From NCBI RefSeq assembly GCF_029953265.1, contig NZ_JASBAO010000001.1, positions 620,001 through 684,000 on the forward strand: DNA of 64,000 bases. Direction: 5' to 3'. Under the pieces are notes generated by a model. That model did not search any database. It had not been told where the DNA came from and saw nothing but the letters and a program-made list of their open reading frames with translations. The stretch comes from Commensalibacter oyaizuii (GTDB lineage Bacteria; Pseudomonadota; Alphaproteobacteria; Acetobacterales; Acetobacteraceae). This document shows, piece after piece, positions 7,256-29,036 of the stretch (its first letter is position 1; the number at the start of each line of letters is the position of its first letter). Position numbers and translations under genes: made by a program.

Positions 7256-7714
7256 TTACTTGGAAGAAAGATTACCACTATTGAATATGTAATTACTGAT
7301 CTGCTGCTCGACACTAGTATAAGGTATTGTATTGGTTATAAAATCATCTGGTTTAAAGTATTCCTTTGATTTCCCAGGTTTAATCATTACTGATCCATCA
7401 TCTGTCATGCTGGTCGAACCAATACTTAGCTGACTATCTTTTGGAAGAAGAATATCCTTATTAATTTCAATTTTAACATCGGCCATAAATGTTTGATTAT
7501 TTAATCGAATAGAGCGAATAATACCAATTGGTACGCCGGCCAAAATGACACTGCCCCCTGGTTCAATAGTGTTGGCAGATAAAAATTGGGCATGCAAAGG
7601 ATATCGTTCCCCTTTTACCCCAAATAACATTAATTTTGAGTATGAATAAAAACCAACAGCAACGGCTAGCACCAATGTACTTGCTACATAGGCACTGATT
7701 TTATTGCTTTTCAT
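7256..7714 (-). CDS. mlaD: MlaD-type MCE-domain protein
   Basis: This is an MCE-domain protein like MlaD, the periplasmic hexameric substrate-binding part of the Mla phospholipid transport system that keeps outer-membrane lipid asymmetry. At 152 residues it has one N-terminal membrane anchor (about residues 8-28), then the MCE core with FLSANTIEPGGSVILAGVPIG (about 43-63) and a typical KDSQLSIGSTSMTDDGSVMIKPG segment. It is a single-MCE-domain protein of MlaD length. Unusually, no mlaE, mlaF, mlaC or mlaB gene adjoins it; the other Mla parts must lie elsewhere. GGAGG lies in the leader as a good ribosome-binding site. Confidence 0.85.
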   Translation of the reverse strand: MKSNKISAYVASTLVLAVAVGFYSYSKLMLFGVKGERYPLHAQFLSANTIEPGGSVILAGVPIGIIRSIRLNNQTFMADVKIEINKDILLPKDSQLSIGSTSMTDDGSVMIKPGKSKEYFKPDDFITNTIPYTSVEQQISNYIFNSGNLSSK

Positions 7715-7886
7715 GTATTGCCTCCATCTTTATTCATCTTCAATACTATTTATCAAAATATACAAATTTATATTTATTGCGGAATAAATACATTATAGCC
7801 TATTCTTTAGCTACATTTAACCTTTTAAAATACTTATTAAAAATATACAAAGAAAATAGCAGAAAAATAAAAACGGGCCTTCAAAT

Positions 7887-8729
7887 ATGTCATTCCTTCA
7901 AGCAATTTTTATTGCCATTTTACAAGGTGCAACAGAACTTTTCCCTGTTAGCAGTCTTGGCCATGCTGTTATTATCCCTGCCCTGCTGGGATGGGTTATC
8001 AGCCCACAAGATCCGACTTTTTTACCTTTTATTGTCATGTTGCATTTTGGAACTGCCTTTGCACTGTTGATCTTTTTTTGGAAGGATTGGCACGCTTTGT
8101 TTCGCGGTGTTTTGGGTAAAGATGGTGCAGCTATTCAACAGCAAAGTATTTATATTGTATTACTATTGATCATAGCAACCTTACCCGCCATCTTAATAGG
8201 AGCAATTTTAGAAAGTTATATTCGTCAACTTTTTTCAACCCCAGAAATGGTTTCTATTTTTTTAATTTGTAACGGGTTTATGTTATTCTTTGCAGAGCGT
8301 TTAAAAAAGCGATCTCATCCAACAACAACCATGGCTATTGCAAATATGACCCCCAAAGATGCGCTCGTTATTGGATGTTTTCAGTGTCTGGCATTCTTCC
8401 CAGGGTTGTCTCGATCGGGGGCAACCATCGTAGGTGGAATTTTACGCAACTTATCACATGAAAATTCAGCTAGATTTTCATTTCTACTTGCACTTCCTAT
8501 CATTTTAGCAGCTTCTGTTCATCAATTATGGAAAATTCACAGCCATCATATCCCTATTGAGAATATTGGCACATTATCAATTGCTACAATCATTGGTGGA
8601 ATCACTGCATTACTCAGCACTGCTGTTTTAATGAAATTTTTCCGTGATCATGACAATTGGGCGTTAACCCCCTTTAGCTTTTATTGTATTGCTTTAGGAT
8701 CAATTAGTTTACTTGTTTTTTTATTTTAA
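7887..8729 (+). CDS. uppP: Undecaprenyl-diphosphatase UppP (BacA)
   Basis: UppP dephosphorylates undecaprenyl pyrophosphate so that the lipid carrier can be reused for peptidoglycan and other polymers; it can confer bacitracin tolerance. The 280-residue integral membrane protein has the first active-site motif QGATELFPVSSLGH (residues 11-24) and the second PGLSRSGATI (about 173-182), with about eight hydrophobic segments. The first motif reads TELFPVSSLGH rather than the more common TEFLPVSSTGH. The upstream region is AT-rich with no long feature. Confidence 0.95.
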   Translation: MSFLQAIFIAILQGATELFPVSSLGHAVIIPALLGWVISPQDPTFLPFIVMLHFGTAFALLIFFWKDWHALFRGVLGKDGAAIQQQSIYIVLLLIIATLPAILIGAILESYIRQLFSTPEMVSIFLICNGFMLFFAERLKKRSHPTTTMAIANMTPKDALVIGCFQCLAFFPGLSRSGATIVGGILRNLSHENSARFSFLLALPIILAASVHQLWKIHSHHIPIENIGTLSIATIIGGITALLSTAVLMKFFRDHDNWALTPFSFYCIALGSISLLVFLF

Positions 8730-20557: not shown

Positions 20558-21232
20558 ATGAACGCCCACTCCCGCCCTTTAATTGTATTTGATATGGATG
20601 GTACCTTAATCGATAGCCTACCAGACATAGCTGATAGTAGTCGTTATTTGTTACAATCTTATCAATTACCTTCAGTTAATGACCAAACTGTTCGCTCTAT
20701 GATTGGGGATGGTATCAAAATATTAGTAGAAAGGCTATTAAATCACGCAGGAAACACCACAATTGATTTACACGAAGCAACTCAACGGTTCATTACTTAT
20801 TACGTTGACCATTCTACCGATTACTCACACGCATTTGATGGTACAATAAAATGTCTGGAAGAATTTAAAAAACGTGATTGGCTTATTGCCCTATGTACAA
20901 ACAAAATTACCAGTGCTGCGGATCTCATTTTACAACAATTACAATTAGGCTATTATTTCGATATTATTGGCGGTGGGGATCGCTTTGCTGATAAAAAGCC
21001 AAATGCATGTCATTTAGAGGGAGTTATCAACCTTCTTCATGCTGATCCTGCACAAACGGTGATGGTTGGTGATCATATGAATGACATTTTAGTGGCTAAA
21101 CACGCCAAAATAGCAGGCAGCATCTATGCCGCATGGGGGTATGGATCAAGTGAAATTGGGAAACAAGCCACTTGTACCGCAAATTCAATTATTGAATTGC
21201 CAGACTTAGCTGAAAAAATCATAAAAAAATAA
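20558..21232 (+). CDS. gph: HAD-family phosphoglycolate phosphatase-like hydrolase
   Basis: A 224-residue HAD hydrolase of the Gph type, which removes phosphate from 2-phosphoglycolate formed in DNA repair or photorespiration-like reactions. Motif I is FDMDGTLIDS (residues 12-21, both Asp present), motif II the Thr in LCTNK, motif III the Lys near ADKKPNA, and motif IV GDHMND. A helical cap domain lies between motifs I and II. Other small phosphate esters are possible substrates. It is divergent from glmU and ends before a bidirectional terminator. Confidence 0.82.
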   Translation: MNAHSRPLIVFDMDGTLIDSLPDIADSSRYLLQSYQLPSVNDQTVRSMIGDGIKILVERLLNHAGNTTIDLHEATQRFITYYVDHSTDYSHAFDGTIKCLEEFKKRDWLIALCTNKITSAADLILQQLQLGYYFDIIGGGDRFADKKPNACHLEGVINLLHADPAQTVMVGDHMNDILVAKHAKIAGSIYAAWGYGSSEIGKQATCTANSIIELPDLAEKIIKK

Positions 21233-21312: not shown

Positions 21313-22575
21313 TTAAACTTTTTTAATTTTCGGCTGATTCACTTCGATGAACAAGGTCAAAATCGCTGCAAATATATATAATCCGATATAAGACCAAATT
21401 GCCCCAGCAATACCAAATAAAGGTACCATTAATGTTGCAATTCCAGGTCCAACAAAATTGCTTAGCCCTGCCGATAAATTATAAATAGAAATTGCAGCCC
21501 CTTTGTGATTAGGCTCCAATGCAGCAAACACAGCAGTCATAGGAACAAAAGCCGCAACTGTAAAACCAAATAATACAGCTGGGATCATAGCCATCCAATA
21601 ATTATGACCAAAAGTTACAGGGATATAATAAAAAGCAAAACAAGCAACAGCCCCACCAATACACCCAAACCAACGGGCCTGACGCAACCATCCTATATGA
21701 TCACCTAAAATACCCCACATTACATTGGTAAAAATAGTTACAAACATAAATACAGTCCAAATATTTTGCCACTCTGTTTTGGTAAATCCTAATCCATGAT
21801 CATTTACGTTTGCTCCAACAAGTAACCAAGGCATAACAACTGCAAATCCAAAAATTGGGGTTGTATTAATAATCCGCACCAAAGCAGACATAAAAATATT
21901 TTTATTAGAAAATAAAATTGTTACAGCTCGCGATAGCTCCTCAGTTTTTTCTGCAAAAGATAGATTTGCTTTCGATCTATCTGTTTTAACATTTCTAAGG
22001 GCAATCAAAGCAATCAGACCACCAACAATGACCCATCCTAATGCCATCCATAAAGTATTATGCTCGCCGATAATAGGATTAATATAACCTGGAAGATATC
22101 CCCCCAAAACGCCAAATCCAATAGAATATGCAGCCCAGAACCATCCCATTGCCGTGGAAACTTTGCTTTCTGAGACATTTTGAATAATTAAAATTACAAA
22201 AGAATATAAAAATAATGGATAGCCAAAACCACGAATAGCATAACATATAACCATCAACGGATAATTATGTAATCCAATACCAAAAAACATAAAAAAGACA
22301 TGCATCACAGCCCATAATGCAAATCCAATAAACATTGCCTTTTGTGGTGTAATAACTTCTGCAACAACGCCTGAACACCAAGCTGAGATTGCAACAAATA
22401 AGCCATATAATGTAAATACAAAACCAGATTGTGCTTCTGAAAAACCCATATCTGTTATATATTTTGATAAAAATGCGGCCTCAAAGCCATCACCGGCCAT
22501 GAATATTGCAATAGCTATATACCCCCAAACAAGTGATGGTGGCATAAAACCAAATAAAAGTTTTTGTGATTTCAT
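21313..22575 (-). CDS. MFS polyol permease (RbtT/DalT-like)
   Basis: A 420-residue, 12-helix MFS transporter. It resembles the remembered sequence of Klebsiella ribitol transporter RbtT over its length: WGYIAIAIFMAGDGFEAAFLSKYI near the start, AFLSKYITDMGFSEAQ, SGVVAEVITPQKAMFIGF, GFGYPLFLYSFVI, MGWFWAAYSIGFGVLG, FGCIGGAVACFAFYYIP, and ALEPNHKGAAISIYNLSAGLSNF near the C end. Likely substrates are ribitol, arabitol or a hexitol. It is the last gene of the minus-strand polyol cluster, 80 bases after the dehydrogenase gene, with a long hairpin in that gap. Confidence 0.85.
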   Translation of the reverse strand: MKSQKLLFGFMPPSLVWGYIAIAIFMAGDGFEAAFLSKYITDMGFSEAQSGFVFTLYGLFVAISAWCSGVVAEVITPQKAMFIGFALWAVMHVFFMFFGIGLHNYPLMVICYAIRGFGYPLFLYSFVILIIQNVSESKVSTAMGWFWAAYSIGFGVLGGYLPGYINPIIGEHNTLWMALGWVIVGGLIALIALRNVKTDRSKANLSFAEKTEELSRAVTILFSNKNIFMSALVRIINTTPIFGFAVVMPWLLVGANVNDHGLGFTKTEWQNIWTVFMFVTIFTNVMWGILGDHIGWLRQARWFGCIGGAVACFAFYYIPVTFGHNYWMAMIPAVLFGFTVAAFVPMTAVFAALEPNHKGAAISIYNLSAGLSNFVGPGIATLMVPLFGIAGAIWSYIGLYIFAAILTLFIEVNQPKIKKV

Positions 22576-22591
22576 TAAAGATTACCTAATT

Positions 22592-22629
22592 TTTCGAATA
22601 GAAGATAAATTTTTATCCTCTATTCGAAA
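22592..22629 (-). promoter_or_regulatory. Intercistronic hairpin before the polyol permease
   Basis: An outer 11-bp stem TTTCGAATAGA/TCTATTCGAAA (22592-22602 and 22619-22629) continues after one mismatch into a 6-bp inner stem GATAAA/TTTATC. On the minus strand it ends 5 bases before the AGGT ribosome-binding site (22587-22584) of the permease and lacks a following T tract. It could set relative expression of the dehydrogenase and the permease by RNA processing or by opening the leader. Confidence 0.6.
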
Positions 22630-22655
22630 TGTTATTGGCTATAGATTTATAAGTC

Positions 22656-23384
22656 TTATAAATCCTGTGCTGATGGCATAATAACAATATCCCTGATTGT
22701 AACATTACGTGGACGTGTTAACATGAAAATGATTGCTTCGGCAATTTCAGAAGGTTCAATAATACTGCCCATTTCCTTGGCTTTCTTAAGATTTTCTTCT
22801 GGCCAATCGGCCAATAATGCCGTAATTACGGGCCCTGGGGATACAGAGCCAATACGAAGGCCATGCTTATTAATTTGGCGACGAACAGTCTGAACAAAAC
22901 AGGTCATTGCCCATTTTGATGCTGCGTAAACAGGTTCCCATTGCACAGGATAATGTCCTGCGACCGAACTGGTAACAATAATATCACCGTTACCTCTTTC
23001 AATCATATGCGGTAAAACAGCATGTACATTCTTCATAACTGTTGATACATTCAAATTAATTAACCGATCAATTGCATCTGGATCGGCGTCAATTAAATCA
23101 CCACCGATGTAGCATCCTGCATTTGCGTGAAAAATATCAATTTTACCTGTTTTTTCCAAAATATTAGGAACTAATTCTGAACAACTTTTCGTATCTAACA
23201 AATCTGTAACAAGAGGGATTACTTTATCATTATGTTGTTTTTTAATCTTTTCCATAGCTGCAAGATCACGATCCACCATAACGACTGTTGCACCACTAGC
23301 AACCAAAGCTTCGGTTGATGCACGTCCAATACCAGATGCTGCACCAGTGACCACAGCAACTTTGTTTTGTAAAGATTGAGACAT
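22656..23384 (-). CDS. Ribitol 2-dehydrogenase-like SDR (polyol dehydrogenase)
   Basis: A 242-residue classical SDR that aligns with the remembered Klebsiella ribitol 2-dehydrogenase along its length: VVTGAASGIGRAS (Rossmann motif, about residues 11-23), DIFHANAGCYIGGDLIDADPD (HANAG in place of NNAG), TSSVAGHYPVQWEPVYAASKWA with catalytic Ser, Tyr and Lys, SPGPVITALLADWPEE, and the C end RNVTIRDIVIMPSAQDL. Asp in MVDRD after beta-strand 2 indicates NAD preference. Enzymes of this type oxidise ribitol and related polyols such as allitol to 2-ketoses. Exact substrate is inferred from neighbours. Confidence 0.85.
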   Translation of the reverse strand: MSQSLQNKVAVVTGAASGIGRASTEALVASGATVVMVDRDLAAMEKIKKQHNDKVIPLVTDLLDTKSCSELVPNILEKTGKIDIFHANAGCYIGGDLIDADPDAIDRLINLNVSTVMKNVHAVLPHMIERGNGDIIVTSSVAGHYPVQWEPVYAASKWAMTCFVQTVRRQINKHGLRIGSVSPGPVITALLADWPEENLKKAKEMGSIIEPSEIAEAIIFMLTRPRNVTIRDIVIMPSAQDL

Positions 23385-23422
23385 AAATATTATCCTTTTA
23401 TAATAAATAATTTAAGAATATT

Positions 23423-24694
23423 TTAATTGAGATGGCATGCTTGGTTATAAGAACCTAGTACTTTTTGGACATACCAAATGATTACTTCTTCAGGGTCAAA
23501 ATTGTTTTGGGCAAAATGTTCTGCCCCTGGCAAATACTGCATTATTAAAGGAAGAGGTACTATCACCCCGTTCAGTATTGTCAGTAATTTTTCAACGCAA
23601 TTTCGTGCTACTGGATCAGTCCAGTAATAACGTATACGGTCTGAAAAAGAGTAATGACGTAATAAGTAACGCTCGTGATCGTTACCATGATAATGACTGT
23701 TCCAATAATCTGGTTTTTCTAACATTAATTGTTCTAGATTGTTAGACAGATTGCGATTGGGATAATTTTCAAACAATTCACTAGCAATCAGATCTAATGC
23801 AAACAGACACTCCCTAACTGCGAAAGTCAACTCAGGGCCAACTTTAAGAATAGCATAGCCATCTTGCACAAGCTGTGACAAAGAGCATGTTCCTTGATAA
23901 TCCGTTGAATGTGCCTCGAAAACAAGATTAGGATTATCATTTAGAAACGTTGACAATCGTTGTGCCTTGGCACTGTCATATTGGACAATATTCCAATTAC
24001 CAAATTCAACACCAGGTTGAACAACTATACCAAGCAAACGACTGATGACGTCCTCAAGACCTGCTTTATGCAAGGCATCTTGATGAACGCTATATGTCCT
24101 TTTAACTGCTTCTGGTCGAGTAGGTTCAAGAGACGTGATATCATGATCAGCACCGCCAGGCGGTGGAACCTCGGTACCAATAATATATAATGGCAAGGAT
24201 TGATCACTATCCTTTGCGATCTCTTCAGCCTTTTTAATTAAACGAACAGCACGCTGCGAAACCAATTCATCATCCAAAGCTATTGGTTCCCCTTTACACC
24301 CCATTGATGTGTCAATATGAAGTTTACGAAAACCAGCTTTGACATAAGCAGCAATCATTTTTTCTGCTTCACCCATCGCTTCATCGGCAGGAAGAATTTT
24401 CCATGGGTTTGGCCCCAGATGATCCCCTCCTAAAATAATAATGTCCTTTGGGCATCCTTCTTCCTTTGCCAAAGAGAAGACCAATTGGGCGAAGTCAATA
24501 GGTTGCATACCCGTATATCCACCCCGATGGTTAACTTGATTACAGGTTGCTTCAATTAATACGCTACTATTCGTATCACGACCAAGTCGTAAGGCAGCTC
24601 TCAAAACTAATGGATGAGCAGAACAAACAGAGGTAATCCCTCTGGATTGTCCCTTAACACGATAGTCTTTTAATCCTTCAAGCGTAACCTTCAT
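23423..24694 (-). CDS. GatZ/KbaZ-family protein, probable D-tagatose 6-phosphate 4-epimerase
   Basis: A 423-residue TIM-barrel protein of the family once named the non-catalytic subunit of tagatose-bisphosphate aldolase. Marks include GITSVCSAHPLVLRAAL, EATCNQVNHRGGYTGM, ILGGDHLGPNPW, KLHIDTSMGC, GTEVPPPGG and FEAHSTDYQ. The aldolase partner GatY/KbaY is not nearby. In Agrobacterium fabrum a family member beside a tagatose kinase and SDR dehydrogenases was shown to be a D-tagatose 6-phosphate 4-epimerase (EC 5.1.3.40), making fructose 6-phosphate; the same gene company here supports that role. It overlaps the kinase stop by one base (TAATG). Confidence 0.8.
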   Translation of the reverse strand: MKVTLEGLKDYRVKGQSRGITSVCSAHPLVLRAALRLGRDTNSSVLIEATCNQVNHRGGYTGMQPIDFAQLVFSLAKEEGCPKDIIILGGDHLGPNPWKILPADEAMGEAEKMIAAYVKAGFRKLHIDTSMGCKGEPIALDDELVSQRAVRLIKKAEEIAKDSDQSLPLYIIGTEVPPPGGADHDITSLEPTRPEAVKRTYSVHQDALHKAGLEDVISRLLGIVVQPGVEFGNWNIVQYDSAKAQRLSTFLNDNPNLVFEAHSTDYQGTCSLSQLVQDGYAILKVGPELTFAVRECLFALDLIASELFENYPNRNLSNNLEQLMLEKPDYWNSHYHGNDHERYLLRHYSFSDRIRYYWTDPVARNCVEKLLTILNGVIVPLPLIMQYLPGAEHFAQNNFDPEEVIIWYVQKVLGSYNQACHLN

Positions 24695-25680
24695 TATATT
24701 CTCCTTGGGGTATTTTTGATAAACATTTGCAATTCTTTTAAACTTGCCGTTCCTTCCATTGGCCCAAGGAACTGAACATTTCTAGCACCTGCAGCATTCG
24801 CCAGTAATAATGAATCTTCTAGAGGTAAATCTAATCTTCTACAGCCAACATAAGCACCGCCAAAACAATCACCCGCACCCGTTGGATCAATCTCTTTAAC
24901 CTCGAATGCTTCACATGACGTTATATTTCCATAATAATCATAAGATACTGCCCCCTTGTCACCTTGCTTCAGCACAACCTCTTTTACCCCTACTGAAAAT
25001 ACTTTCTTTATTGCTACCTGAATATCTGTTGTATCTGTAATGGTTAGTATTTCCTCACCAGAAGGAAGTAACAGATCCGTTTGGGTTAATAGGTAATTAA
25101 GACGATGCGTGAATGTTGCGTCTGATTTTAATTCCTTTCTGATATTGGGATCAAAAGAGACACTGCCCCCACGTTTTTTTATGGTATTTACTGCATATTC
25201 AACAATATCCCATGCCCCAGGCATTGCTAGTAACGTTCCCATAATATGAATATGCCCAGCCCTTGAGATCAACGCATCTGTGTTGTCATTTCTGGTAATT
25301 TTTCCCGCTGCAGAGGCAACGATATTAAAAACAAAATCACGCTCGCCATTTTCTTGATATCTGATAAAAGCACTGCCCGTTGGCAAGTATGGATCAATAG
25401 AAATGGCAGAAATATCAACACCATCTTTTTCCAATCTCTCGATATTCAATTGTCCAAAAGCATCTTGACCGATGGTTGCAATGATACCTGTATTTTTAGT
25501 TATTTTTGCACACTGATCGATAAAAATTGCAGGGGCGCCACTAGGGAAAGGTCCTTTAAACGTTAGCGGAGGGGCAAACCCTTCCCCAATTTCAGAAGCC
25601 ATGATTTCAACCAGTATTTCCCCTATTGTGATTGTTGGACCTAACTCGTTAGGGGCCAATGTAGAATTCGTGGGCATCAA
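24694..25680 (-). CDS. PfkB-family sugar kinase, tagatose kinase-like
   Basis: A 328-residue ribokinase-type kinase. N-terminal TIGEILVEIMA and GPFPSGAPAIFIDQCAKI resemble the remembered start of Agrobacterium tagatose kinase; GQDAFGQLNIERLEKDGVD, the substrate-binding PTGSAFIRYQENGERDFVFN, and the PfkB signature 2 DPTGAGDCFGGAYV (catalytic Asp in GAGD) are clear. The predicted reaction is phosphorylation of a ketohexose (tagatose, psicose or fructose) at C6. It lies 54 bases after the ROK regulator gene and couples to the GatZ-family gene. The start MMPTNSTL gives a short N-terminal extension before the fold. Confidence 0.85.
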   Translation of the reverse strand: MMPTNSTLAPNELGPTITIGEILVEIMASEIGEGFAPPLTFKGPFPSGAPAIFIDQCAKITKNTGIIATIGQDAFGQLNIERLEKDGVDISAISIDPYLPTGSAFIRYQENGERDFVFNIVASAAGKITRNDNTDALISRAGHIHIMGTLLAMPGAWDIVEYAVNTIKKRGGSVSFDPNIRKELKSDATFTHRLNYLLTQTDLLLPSGEEILTITDTTDIQVAIKKVFSVGVKEVVLKQGDKGAVSYDYYGNITSCEAFEVKEIDPTGAGDCFGGAYVGCRRLDLPLEDSLLLANAAGARNVQFLGPMEGTASLKELQMFIKNTPRRI

Positions 25681-25734
25681 ATTTACTCCAAATATAACGA
25701 ATTGAATGACGAGATCAGAAATAATTAATCAGAT

Positions 25735-26901
25735 TTAGGATAAAAAACGTTGATGTAAGATACATGCCGCCCCATAGGCTGAACCAGATTCTGGATTTTT
25801 ATTCAGAATAATTTCAGGGATTGGAAAAGGCATATCTTGATGTAATTCGATATAAAAATTAACGCGTGCGGAAACTAAGCTATACAACTCAGCCATAGCC
25901 CCACCTAGGATAATTTTATTAGGATCTACAATCCTGCACGCTTGAACCAAGGCTAAACCTAAATATTTAGCCCACTCGTCAGCTAGATTAACAGCAATAG
26001 GTTCACGATTATTAACACATTCAATAAACGAGCCAATTGTAACTTCTGAACAACCAGAAAGAACACGATATCGGGATAAAAGTTCTTCTAACCCTATAAT
26101 TGACTCAAGGCTTTTCTTTTCTTTTTCTTCATTTTGAATAATTAAATGTCCTATTTCACTAGCCAGACCATTGCCACCTCTAAATAACTTTCCATCGACG
26201 ACTAATCCACCACCAATACCACTTTCAAGAACTAAAAAAAGAATAACACCCTGTGTTATATTGGATTGATACAAAGCACCTATTGCAAAAGCATTCGCAT
26301 CATTTTCAACAGCTACAGGCAAATCCAAGGGCAACTTACTTTCTACAATTTTTAGAAAATCAATATTTTTCCATCGTAATAATGAAGCATTATAAATATA
26401 TCCCTTGTCATTCATTTGCCCGGGAACGGAAAAACCAATACCGTATAAATTATCCATCATGATGTTGTGACACATTGATAATGCCATTTTTATTGATTGA
26501 TCAATTGTCATTTCAACGTCTTGCATTTTACAATCAAGAGATTGATGTTTGATATCGACAACCGTTGCGGTCATATCAATTAAAATAATGGTTATGTATT
26601 CGACCCCTATTTCAATCCCAAGGAAATAAGCAGCTTCGGGTATAAGCTCTAACAAAATACCTGGACGACCACGTTGATAGGTCTCTGCAGTTTGATCACC
26701 ACTTCTAGTAATTTCCCTTACGAAGCCGTTATTGATCAGATCAACAATAATATGACCAGACGATGACCGATTAAGTCCCATTTTTCTGGCAATTTCTGCA
26801 CGACTTAATGCGCCAAATCGGTGCAAAGCTTGCAGTGCAATCAATTCGTTGCTGTGTCTTATGCGTCTAGAAGCATTAAACTGTAAACTAAGATCATCCA
26901 T
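25735..26901 (-). CDS. ROK-family transcriptional regulator
   Basis: A 388-residue NagC/XylR-type regulator. The N-terminal winged helix-turn-helix is ALSRAEIARKMGLNRSSSGHIIVDLINNGFV (about residues 31-62). The ROK sugar-binding domain follows, with an ATP-site-like GIEIGVEYITIILID, AVENDANAFAIGALY, ESGIGGGLVVDGKLFRGGNGLASEIGH and VDPNKIILGG. The usual ROK zinc motif CxCGxxGC is not present after GLASEIGHLII, which differs from many ROK proteins. It is the first gene of the polyol operon and probably represses it, with sugar or sugar phosphate as inducer. Confidence 0.88.
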   Translation of the reverse strand: MDDLSLQFNASRRIRHSNELIALQALHRFGALSRAEIARKMGLNRSSSGHIIVDLINNGFVREITRSGDQTAETYQRGRPGILLELIPEAAYFLGIEIGVEYITIILIDMTATVVDIKHQSLDCKMQDVEMTIDQSIKMALSMCHNIMMDNLYGIGFSVPGQMNDKGYIYNASLLRWKNIDFLKIVESKLPLDLPVAVENDANAFAIGALYQSNITQGVILFLVLESGIGGGLVVDGKLFRGGNGLASEIGHLIIQNEEKEKKSLESIIGLEELLSRYRVLSGCSEVTIGSFIECVNNREPIAVNLADEWAKYLGLALVQACRIVDPNKIILGGAMAELYSLVSARVNFYIELHQDMPFPIPEIILNKNPESGSAYGAACILHQRFLS

Positions 26902-27265
26902 TTATAAAACTTATGACTTTTTCATAATAACAATAACCGTAATATTATATAGTTTTAGACAACAAAATTATAACAAAAATAAAAATTTTATGATCTAATT
27001 TAAATATCTAAAACCTAATTTCATCATAATAAAGCTTATTTTGTATTTTAATGCAACAAAATTATTTGCGTCTATAATCACAAAAATTTTACTAAAAATT
27101 CCACCATAATTCATTTTTCATCTATATCATTATTTTTACTGTAAAATTATTTTTAGATATGCAAATAATTGAAGGTAATTTGTAAAATAATGTACAAAAA
27201 AATAATGATATTTGATCTTTTTGTGTCATATTAAGATTTAAACTTACTTTTTCTGGGAGTACACC
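26902..27265. promoter_or_regulatory. Divergent control region between the ROK gene and the epimerase gene
   Basis: A 364-base, very AT-rich gap without a gene. It contains AATTATTTGC (27060-27069) and its exact reverse complement GCAAATAATT (27161-27170) about 100 bases apart, the palindrome TTTTAC-T-GTAAAA (27134-27146), and a short hairpin TTATGA/TCATAA (26911-26927) in the ROK leader. These are candidate operators for the ROK protein. GGGAG lies 6 bases before the epimerase ATG. No confident -35/-10 pair was chosen because the AT content gives many weak matches. Confidence 0.45.
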
Positions 27266-28150
27266 ATGCAATTTGGAACTTTATATTCTTATTGGAATAA
27301 AGAATGGGATTGTAATACTGCAGATTATTTGAAACTTATTGAAAAAATTTCTTCAATTGGTTTTGATATTCTCGAAATTAACGCTGATCATGTTTATCAT
27401 ATGCCTGAAAGTGATCTTAAAAAATTAAATGATCTCCGTAACCAGCACGGATTGAAATTCACTTTAAATAGTGGCCCATCCAAAGAGTATGATATGGCAT
27501 CAGATAATAAAGTTATCCGCCAACAAGCCATTCAATATTACACCAAGATCCTAGAAAAAATGCCTTTATTAAAGGCAAATACACTTATCGGTGCAATTTA
27601 TTCTTATTGGCCATGTGATTTTACCAGTACGAATAAAGAACTCGCTTGGAAAAATAGTATAGCCTGCCTACGTCACTTAGGACAAATAGCAGAAGATTTG
27701 AATATCACAATAGCTCTTGAAGTACTAAATCGTAATGAAACCTATATCTTGACAAATTGTCAGGAGGCCGTTGATTACTGCAAACAAATCAATAGTAAAT
27801 CTGTAAAAATACTTTTAGATACGTATCATATGAACATCGAGGAAGATAGTATCCCAGATGCAATTCGATATGCTGGCGATTGGCTCGCACATCTACATGT
27901 TGGTGAAAATAACCGTAAATTGCCTGGCATGAATAACACTATTGATTGGCCAGCAGTCGCTGCAGCCTTGCACGATATTGGTTATGACAAAGGTGTTGTC
28001 ATGGAACCATTTATTTTAAACGGTGGATCTGTGGGAAATGCTATTCGAGTATGGCGAGATTTAAGTAATAATGCAACACCCCAGCAGATGGACAATTATA
28101 TTATCCAATCATTGAATTTCCTAAGGAAAACATTTGCAATAAAAAACTAA
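27266..28150 (+). CDS. D-psicose/D-tagatose 3-epimerase-family protein
   Basis: A 294-residue TIM-barrel epimerase. It closely follows the remembered Agrobacterium D-psicose 3-epimerase: YSYWNKEWDCN at the start, IGFDILEINADHVY, TLNSGPSKEYDMAS, YSYWPCDF near 112, IALEVLNRNETYILT (catalytic Glu), ILLDTYHMNIEEDSI (metal Asp and His), HLHVGENNRKLPG, and VVMEPFILNGGSVG (second catalytic Glu). It should interconvert D-psicose with D-fructose and D-tagatose with D-sorbose. It is divergent from the ROK-kinase-GatZ-SDR-permease operon across the shared control region. Confidence 0.88.
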   Translation: MQFGTLYSYWNKEWDCNTADYLKLIEKISSIGFDILEINADHVYHMPESDLKKLNDLRNQHGLKFTLNSGPSKEYDMASDNKVIRQQAIQYYTKILEKMPLLKANTLIGAIYSYWPCDFTSTNKELAWKNSIACLRHLGQIAEDLNITIALEVLNRNETYILTNCQEAVDYCKQINSKSVKILLDTYHMNIEEDSIPDAIRYAGDWLAHLHVGENNRKLPGMNNTIDWPAVAAALHDIGYDKGVVMEPFILNGGSVGNAIRVWRDLSNNATPQQMDNYIIQSLNFLRKTFAIKN

Positions 28151-28211: not shown

Positions 28212-29036
28212 TTATTTATCTATAGGTATTTTTCTTAAAACTCCAGTAACCATACCCATTTTAGGATGCTGAAAATCAAATCTAACCGGTAAAATTCCAA
28301 CTTGATCAATATTTTTAAACCAAATACTGCCTGGTTGAGGTTGAGCCATCAAAGCACGATGACGAGAATGCTTTAGACCACCAATTTGTTGCGCCACTGC
28401 TTTGCAAAATAAAGCTTGACCTCTATAGGGACTGGTCCAAGTTGAAGGCATTTCCCTCTCTCCTACCGTTTCGCTGTGAAATGTGTAGACACGCAGTCCA
28501 TCAATCAAACGAAATTGATCATCGCACTTTCCTGTAGTACGAACACGATAAATCAATTCAGCCATTGCACTCATAATGTCTAAACTATGTTGCATTTGCG
28601 CATCAGTTAAAGGATCTCTTTCTGGGTCTCGTGCTGGTGTTAGTGTTTTAATAATAGGCAATTGCCCATGGTTAAAATCAATAACTATGTGAAAATCTTC
28701 TTTTTTCGATTTTCCATGAGAATTAAAAATAGTTGGGATTGCTTTTTCATTTTTAAATATACCAGACACAGTTGAATATGTATCCAAACTAAAAACAATG
28801 CTGGCAAGACCTGCAGAGATAAAATGTGCTTTTACACTATATTGATCAGGGGTTAGAGTATACGTGGCTTTTACCGTAATAACGTGCAACCCTTTGTTAT
28901 ATACATCGTAAACAAGTGAAACTGGCTTATGATCAGGAAATTGTTGCTGCTGCTTTTCTTGCGCTTGCACATTTGCACAATAAGTGGCAAAGATCCATAA
29001 AATACCTAAAGCTAAAGACGAAAAAAACTTGGTCAT
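28212..29036 (-). CDS. DUF3108-family exported protein
   Basis: A 274-residue protein with an N-terminal signal peptide (hydrophobic residues 6-24, probable cut after VQA-Q near residue 25). The body resembles DUF3108 envelope proteins: SLVYDVYNKGLHVITVKATYTLTPDQYSVKAHF near the start, an AMAELIYRVRTTGKCDDQFRLIDGLRVYTFH segment in the middle, and VRFDFQHPKMGMVTGVLRKI at the end. Two Cys residues (in GKCDD and LFCKAV) could form a periplasmic disulfide. Function is unknown. The leader holds an 11-bp inverted repeat ending next to the ribosome-binding site. Confidence 0.75.
   Translation of the reverse strand: MTKFFSSLALGILWIFATYCANVQAQEKQQQQFPDHKPVSLVYDVYNKGLHVITVKATYTLTPDQYSVKAHFISAGLASIVFSLDTYSTVSGIFKNEKAIPTIFNSHGKSKKEDFHIVIDFNHGQLPIIKTLTPARDPERDPLTDAQMQHSLDIMSAMAELIYRVRTTGKCDDQFRLIDGLRVYTFHSETVGEREMPSTWTSPYRGQALFCKAVAQQIGGLKHSRHRALMAQPQPGSIWFKNIDQVGILPVRFDFQHPKMGMVTGVLRKIPIDK

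Follow-up and report, generated by a model that had tools for sequence, protein, structure and literature searches.

The window analysed here is a stretch of 64,000 nucleotides of Commensalibacter oyaizuii (positions 620,001 to 684,000 of contig NZ_JASBAO010000001.1, assembly GCF_029953265.1), and at 21313-28150 it holds a block of six intact open reading frames (ORFs) for a major facilitator superfamily (MFS) permease, a short-chain dehydrogenase (SDR), a GatZ-family protein, a tagatose kinase, a ROK-family regulator and a ketose 3-epimerase. We regard the block as a variant form of the tagatose-kinase/GatZ pathway in which a 3-epimerase is a recurrent partner, and not as a new type of system. 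Judging from their families, the kinase and the GatZ protein very probably convert D-tagatose to tagatose 6-phosphate and this to fructose 6-phosphate. In the broader proposal the block is a horizontally acquired catabolic island under ROK control; that its epimerase supplies the kinase, irrespective of the polyol, is close to evenly balanced, and D-sorbose is suggested as the entry to the route only as a tentative and rather doubtful special case. A preliminary description of this DNA had listed six adjacent genes of these families and read them as polyol-type uptake and oxidation with an exit through tagatose kinase and GatZ to fructose 6-phosphate; the coordinates and family scores agree with the list, the SDR being placed by its solved relatives and the ROK protein by Pfam, and the family assignments speak for the predicted exit.

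The kinase falls within the tagatose kinase family NF049991, as in the Agrobacterium-type pathway, and its best solved relative is 3iq0, ‘putative Ribokinase II’ (282.9 bits). The GatZ protein passes the NCBIfam model agaZ_gatZ by only 1.4 bits (cut-off 568.8). All seven active-site residues, which the available part of the source names for Escherichia coli GatZ from a model (PMC11907403), are present in the window protein, and the same seven are kept in 114/114 aligned rows, window included (121 loci were offered to this alignment and 8 gave no row). According to the same part of that paper, E. coli GatZ and KbaZ interconvert fructose 6-phosphate and tagatose 6-phosphate, and GatY/KbaY failed to restore tagatose production (PMC11907403). 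Genome-wide, the class II aldolase family PF01116 gave no match, the control being detected in 11 of 14 known genomes; no search was aimed at a class I tagatose-bisphosphate aldolase. Nor did the genome yield a phosphofructokinase above cut-off, the only match being a sub-threshold one over 59 positions (control over cut-off in 8 of 14). Since both class II aldolase and a phosphofructokinase above cut-off are missing, the GatZ protein should be a 4-epimerase, and tagatose 6-phosphate 4-epimerase is the predicted role that fits best; for the same reason, fructose 6-phosphate probably exits by a route other than classical glycolysis.

The gene set recurs in related genomes, a point that the preliminary description had left to a search, and is more than a chance arrangement: homologous clusters were found in further members of Commensalibacter, in Izhakiella and in numerous Rhizobiales and Rhodobacterales. 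Gene neighbours were counted in the best 80 of at least 546 confirmed loci, a set obtained from exact peptide patterns and biased to close relatives. The counts were made by tblastn at 1e-12, because antisense ORFs in high-G+C DNA made a clustering of the loci by ORF unreliable. The kinase tree splits the 80 loci into 39 in the window's clade and 41 others. An epimerase-family match was present at 33/39 clade loci vs 0/41 others, and a ROK match, upstream of the kinase, at 29/39 vs 0/41. Ribitol-type SDRs (at least 50% identity) were matched at 25 of the 39 and 6 of the 41, with all six of the outside loci also having the L-iditol type, whereas L-iditol-type SDRs (at least 45% identity) were matched at only one clade locus and at 35 of the 41 others. 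GatZ was present at 32/39 and 41/41 loci, respectively; some of these absences may reflect contig ends. That relatives in the clade manage without GatZ was considered and rejected, as the genomes of seven clade loci without it were searched, except that of L047, and all six encode one elsewhere (43-50% identical). Fisher tests over the 80 loci gave p = 2.4e-6 for the co-occurrence of epimerase and ribitol-type SDR, and p = 2.5e-11 for the avoidance of the L-iditol-type SDR by the epimerase. Ten of the 33 epimerase loci are without a ribitol-type SDR at 50% identity or more, so the epimerase tracks the kinase clade more than the SDR. Given its link to the kinase clade, the epimerase more likely feeds the kinase than a psicose-fructose branch.

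To the preliminary description, a 3-epimerase beside these genes had seemed unusual. In the genomes this pairing is frequent, and 29 of the 33 epimerase-bearing clade loci also have matches to an ATP-binding cassette (ABC) importer. The accompanying remark that the pairing is undescribed holds for the literature and not for genomes, where it is common: open-licence PubMed Central (PMC) articles, searched mostly at the level of title and start of abstract, contained no account of it. Among 22 Acetobacteraceae GatZ loci that were compared, the kinase was matched in 16 and the epimerase family in one (L127, about 8.5 kb off). As a separate observation, six Rhizobium loci (L011, L012, L014, L021, L022 and L050) carry both SDR types with kinase and GatZ and have no 3-epimerase.

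In the proposed mechanism, the RbtT-type permease would import a hexitol or its ketose, the SDR would oxidise the hexitol to a 2-ketohexose, and the 3-epimerase would turn that ketose into D-tagatose, most likely in the direction D-sorbose to D-tagatose. The kinase would then form D-tagatose 6-phosphate, GatZ would epimerise this at C4 to fructose 6-phosphate, and the ROK protein would repress the module. All substrates, the step given to the epimerase and the functions in repression and uptake are inferred. The epimerase has E152, D185, H211 and E247, which match the Glu-Asp-His-Glu metal site named for 2HK1 in order and, within one residue, in spacing (the match was judged by these and not by alignment), and its best solved relative is the D-tagatose 3-epimerase 8xix (273.8 bits). 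The nearest solved relatives of the SDR, 5jo9 followed by 9x6o and 9x6l (259 bits), are all named ribitol 2-dehydrogenase; none of the 25 listed NCBIfam models (225 matched) scored above its own cut-off. It carries the motifs TGAASGIG (at 13) and YAASK (at 153). Dehydrogenases of the L-iditol/galactitol type are part of the Agrobacterium-type pathway; the SDR is only 26-29% identical to those of the Acetobacteraceae loci and is not of that type. SmoS of Sinorhizobium meliloti is, we assume, of the L-iditol type with D-tagatose as its product, and a product of that kind could pass directly to the kinase. In the accessible part of its description, SmoS oxidises sorbitol and galactitol (PMC10433430). 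A survey of ten hexitols with a Bradyrhizobium dehydrogenase lists, in the part available, L-glucitol to D-sorbose at 1.15% and L-altritol/L-talitol to L-tagatose at 0.47%; with galactitol, allitol, D-altritol and D-glucitol no ketose could be measured (PMC12193009). Both the reaction from L-glucitol to D-sorbose and the interconversion of D-tagatose and D-sorbose by such 3-epimerases appear as known in the part consulted of PMC3869271. A linear route through D-sorbose would employ every gene of the block. We suggest, as a possibility that we consider unlikely rather than remote, that the block, like those relatives in Rhizobiales and Rhodobacterales that are mostly ABC-fed, forms a route for L-glucitol and/or D-sorbose, running from dehydrogenation to D-sorbose on to D-tagatose and through phosphorylation and C4 epimerisation to fructose 6-phosphate. 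In the literature searched, at the level given above, no catabolic pathway for D-sorbose or L-glucitol was found.

Several observations weigh against an epimerase that feeds the kinase, or against D-sorbose as its substrate. When descent is taken into account, only three supported independent pairs are left (sign test p = 1) and the association is tied to one kinase clade, so the Fisher values overstate it. Six of the 39 clade loci (L002, L034, L046, L047, L048 and L063) have no epimerase. Commensalibacter communis is a case in point: permease, ROK, kinase, GatZ and SDR are present, the epimerase-family match in its draft genome is only 26% identical, and the SDR product may thus be used without this epimerase. 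The window epimerase passes the model for D-psicose 3-epimerase, and such enzymes act on fructose and psicose. The Bradyrhizobium dehydrogenase is said in an earlier report to oxidise mainly D-glucitol, which the table of the hexitol survey does not show. We take 5jo9 to be the D-sorbitol dehydrogenase of Bradyrhizobium japonicum for which PMC12193009 cites a structure paper. The survey data, as far as the source was available, come from low-yield, unoptimised runs, and some absorbance change was seen with allitol, L-iditol and D-talitol/D-altritol, possibly from products below the detection limit (PMC12193009). D-sorbose is also described as rare in nature in the consulted part of PMC3869271.

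Other readings of the six genes were weighed against these data. With a lesser yet real probability, the block could serve two branches, one from allitol through D-psicose to D-fructose and an ordinary fructokinase, and one from galactitol or D-altritol through D-tagatose to the kinase and GatZ. Its epimerase score above the D-psicose 3-epimerase cut-off fits this arrangement, as do a PfkB kinase of the genome with fructokinase as its best model, albeit far under cut-off (141.4 vs 450 bits), the fact that C. communis has kept the kinase branch but not the epimerase, and, from the parts of the papers at hand, the use of ribitol dehydrogenase with DTEase to make allitol from fructose (PMC3869271) and the absorbance reactivity of the Bradyrhizobium enzyme with allitol and D-altritol (PMC12193009). 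However, two branches give the epimerase no reason to accompany one kinase clade, and in the survey as available the Bradyrhizobium dehydrogenase yielded no ketose that could be measured with allitol, galactitol or D-altritol (PMC12193009). The psicose-to-fructose branch of the preliminary description is weakened accordingly, its epimerase gene tracking a kinase clade that the branch does not need; the substrates that it named (allitol, D-altritol, galactitol) are weakened too by the missing ketose, although, given the absorbance change with allitol and D-talitol/D-altritol, the survey does not decide the matter.

A pentitol module, in which ribitol would be converted to D-ribulose, this would be epimerised to D-xylulose and the kinase would act on a pentulose, is improbable. 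The names of the RbtT permease and of ribitol dehydrogenase, the match of a rhizobial epimerase to L-ribulose 3-epimerase and the ability of ketose 3-epimerases to act on pentuloses would suit it, but the kinase is above the tagatose-kinase cut-off, the Pfam matches of the block include no FGGY pentulokinase, and GatZ is left without a role. It is less probable still that GatZ assists a tagatose-bisphosphate aldolase as a non-catalytic partner, with tagatose 6-phosphate going to triose phosphates. This agrees with the name of the NCBIfam model for GatZ and with a GatY gene in the divergent operon of the Izhakiella relative. Yet the catalytic GatY/KbaY subunit of the GatYZ/KbaYZ aldolase pathway has no counterpart among PF01116 matches in the genome, phosphofructokinase is missing above cut-off, and the E. 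coli proteins act as epimerases for which GatY/KbaY are no substitute, in the part of the paper cited (PMC11907403). The role of aldolase helper is thus largely refuted, the class II partner being absent and class I not having been searched for.

Among known systems, the D-altritol/galactitol pathway of Agrobacterium tumefaciens C58 (reportedly by Wichelecki, 2015) and the tagatose operon of S. meliloti (reportedly by Kohlmeier, 2019) are taken here from citing papers. As far as those sources go, both are like the block in using tagatose kinase and a GatZ-family 4-epimerase to reach fructose 6-phosphate, fed by a hexitol dehydrogenase; the block differs in its MFS permease instead of an ABC importer, its ribitol-type SDR, its added 3-epimerase and its ROK regulator. 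The replacement of the ABC importer by an MFS protein, as the preliminary description had it, was borne out: the sole transporter in the block is of the MFS type, with no ABC importer and binding protein. The rhizobial and rhodobacteral loci L005, L017 and L024 have the same enzyme set (kinase, GatZ, SDR and ROK 45-66% identical), but also ABC importer matches and an epimerase only 29-30% identical, that of L005 being closest to the L-ribulose 3-epimerase 3vyl. Two subfamilies occupy the epimerase position, with a 3vyl-like member in rhizobial L005 and an 8xix-like one in the window. Izhakiella australiensis (L004) comes closer in ROK, kinase, GatZ and SDR (64-79%) and in an epimerase of the same NCBIfam family (71%), and in place of the Commensalibacter MFS permease it has a ribose-type ABC importer together with a gene for GatY aldolase. 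In the acetic acid bacterium Novacetimonas hansenii SI1, a cluster that is up on glycerol comprises a predicted tagatose kinase, tagatose 6-phosphate 4-epimerase, sorbitol dehydrogenase and ‘putative metabolite transport protein’ (PMC12405394). Compared by description only, it resembles the block in these four functions, and the part of the account available mentions no 3-epimerase, ROK or ABC protein (PMC12405394).

The block was probably gained from other bacteria. Its nearest loci among the best 80 are those of C. communis, Commensalibacter papalotli and then I. australiensis (Erwiniaceae). In the kinase tree, the window groups with C. communis and C. papalotli (SH-aLRT 98) and Izhakiella comes next (100), the whole group being nested in rhizobial and rhodobacteral sequences, apart from other Acetobacteraceae kinases; this is a quick tree, with warnings for long branches and for the letter make-up of three Commensalibacter rows. 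GatZ matches occur in 23/150 genomes of the window's family (counting its own genome and one very weak match) and in 43/295 genomes of the order of Izhakiella (one very weak), and within that order the Izhakiella GatZ is 72% identical and the next best 50%. The divergent operon of I. australiensis (L004, 1033-6349) encodes the GatY-type tagatose-bisphosphate aldolase and the ribose-type ABC importer. This origin is most simply read as a transfer accompanied by a change of transporter, with no direction implied. A further GatZ in the I. australiensis genome is interrupted by one internal stop. Separate acquisitions by the Commensalibacter species were not supported, as the trees of kinase, GatZ and ROK unite the three (support pairs 100/99, 97/95 and 100/99.5); the best SDR tree splits them, yet does not exclude the grouping (p-AU 0.336). 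A recent exchange of the permease, considered for its 89% identity against 69-76% in the enzymes, was rejected: DalT/DalD homologues are 83-86% identical between members of the genus.

The block fills 6,979 bp between a PGP gene (ending at 21232) and a DUF3108 gene (28212-29036, plus-strand scale), and this interval contains no further ORF of at least 110 amino acids. In 4/9 genomes of the genus (L196-L199), PGP adjoins DUF3108 without the block, the PGP of L196 being matched in two pieces; the remaining five comprise the window's own genome and four with no PGP in the short locus compared. The DUF3108 protein at the right edge is matched in 9/9 genus genomes. In C. papalotli the module has different neighbours and the permease sits behind the epimerase. 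In C. communis (L002, an 18-kb contig) a gene that by eye is ParA-like ATPase lies at 7407-8045, near the module, which may sit on a plasmid or mobile element. A genome comparison, as far as available, describes differences in D-tagatose-using enzymes among three Commensalibacter species (PMC10149009).

Features of the block, with window coordinates, strand and best supporting score
Feature	Position	Strand	Support
MFS permease, RbtT/DalT/CsbX family, 420 aa, probable hexitol/ketose uptake	21313..22575	-	TIGR00897 508.5 bits, cut-off 375
SDR, ribitol/sorbitol 2-dehydrogenase type, 242 aa	22656..23384	-	5jo9 361 bits over 241 residues
GatZ/KbaZ family protein, probable D-tagatose 6-phosphate 4-epimerase, 423 aa	23423..24694	-	PF08013 553.6 bits; agaZ_gatZ 570.2 bits
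PfkB-family D-tagatose kinase, 328 aa, TTG start	24694..25680	-	NF049991 521.5 bits, cut-off 420
ROK-family regulator, 388 aa, probable module repressor	25735..26901	-	PF00480 131.4 bits
ROK/epimerase divergent intergenic region, probable control region	26902..27265	.	AT-rich; 14-mer at 27052
Ketose 3-epimerase, D-psicose/D-tagatose 3-epimerase family, 294 aa	27266..28150	+	NF051856 357.4 bits, cut-off 300

Five of the genes share the minus strand, the end of the kinase gene overlapping the start of the GatZ gene by one base, and the epimerase gene diverges from ROK. Between these two, the 14-mer has near matches in the counterpart regions of three relatives (four summed mismatches), and its score was reached in 7/200 Markov shuffles, a weak motif. 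A promoter scan gave 36 sites against 36.2 expected, and terminator-like sites numbered 13 against 6.4 expected (sd 3.2), all 13 inside listed genes. A tRNA was the sole Rfam match, and the tandem repeat scan found none.

The permease belongs to the RbtT/DalT/CsbX family and shares 89% identity with the copies that stand beside this module in C. communis and C. papalotli. Counting the permease of the block, the genome yields five RbtT-family matches. Three of the remaining four were inspected: one adjoins a D-arabinitol 4-dehydrogenase over cut-off, and two adjoin dehydrogenases below every cut-off. The D-arabinitol 4-dehydrogenase (740 bits, cut-off 600) lies beside an RbtT/DalT permease 67% identical to that of the block (G000:C1:1667041-1669906; L152:7042-9907). 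Other genus genomes (L147, L148 and L149) have a 74-75% permease homologue without the enzymes, followed by what by eye are short SDR-gene remnants, and an inositol-type catabolic cluster, again by eye, lies near another RbtT permease (L156:8768-19653). A sugar-porter MFS protein lies near the cluster in 2/22 Acetobacteraceae GatZ loci (L133 and L134), in a search with one query protein that could miss other transporters.

Rare-sugar production makes use of enzymes from the D-tagatose/D-psicose 3-epimerase family, whose natural function is, to our knowledge, mostly unclear. That an epimerase gene frequently lies next to those for tagatose kinase and GatZ, within one kinase clade, offers a testable physiological role for them and, if true, the L-glucitol/D-sorbose route would give free-ketose 3-epimerases such a role, filled by two subfamilies. 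For Commensalibacter, acetic acid bacteria of the insect gut, the block represents a likely transferred sugar-use module set beside a permease of a family that is multicopy in the genus.

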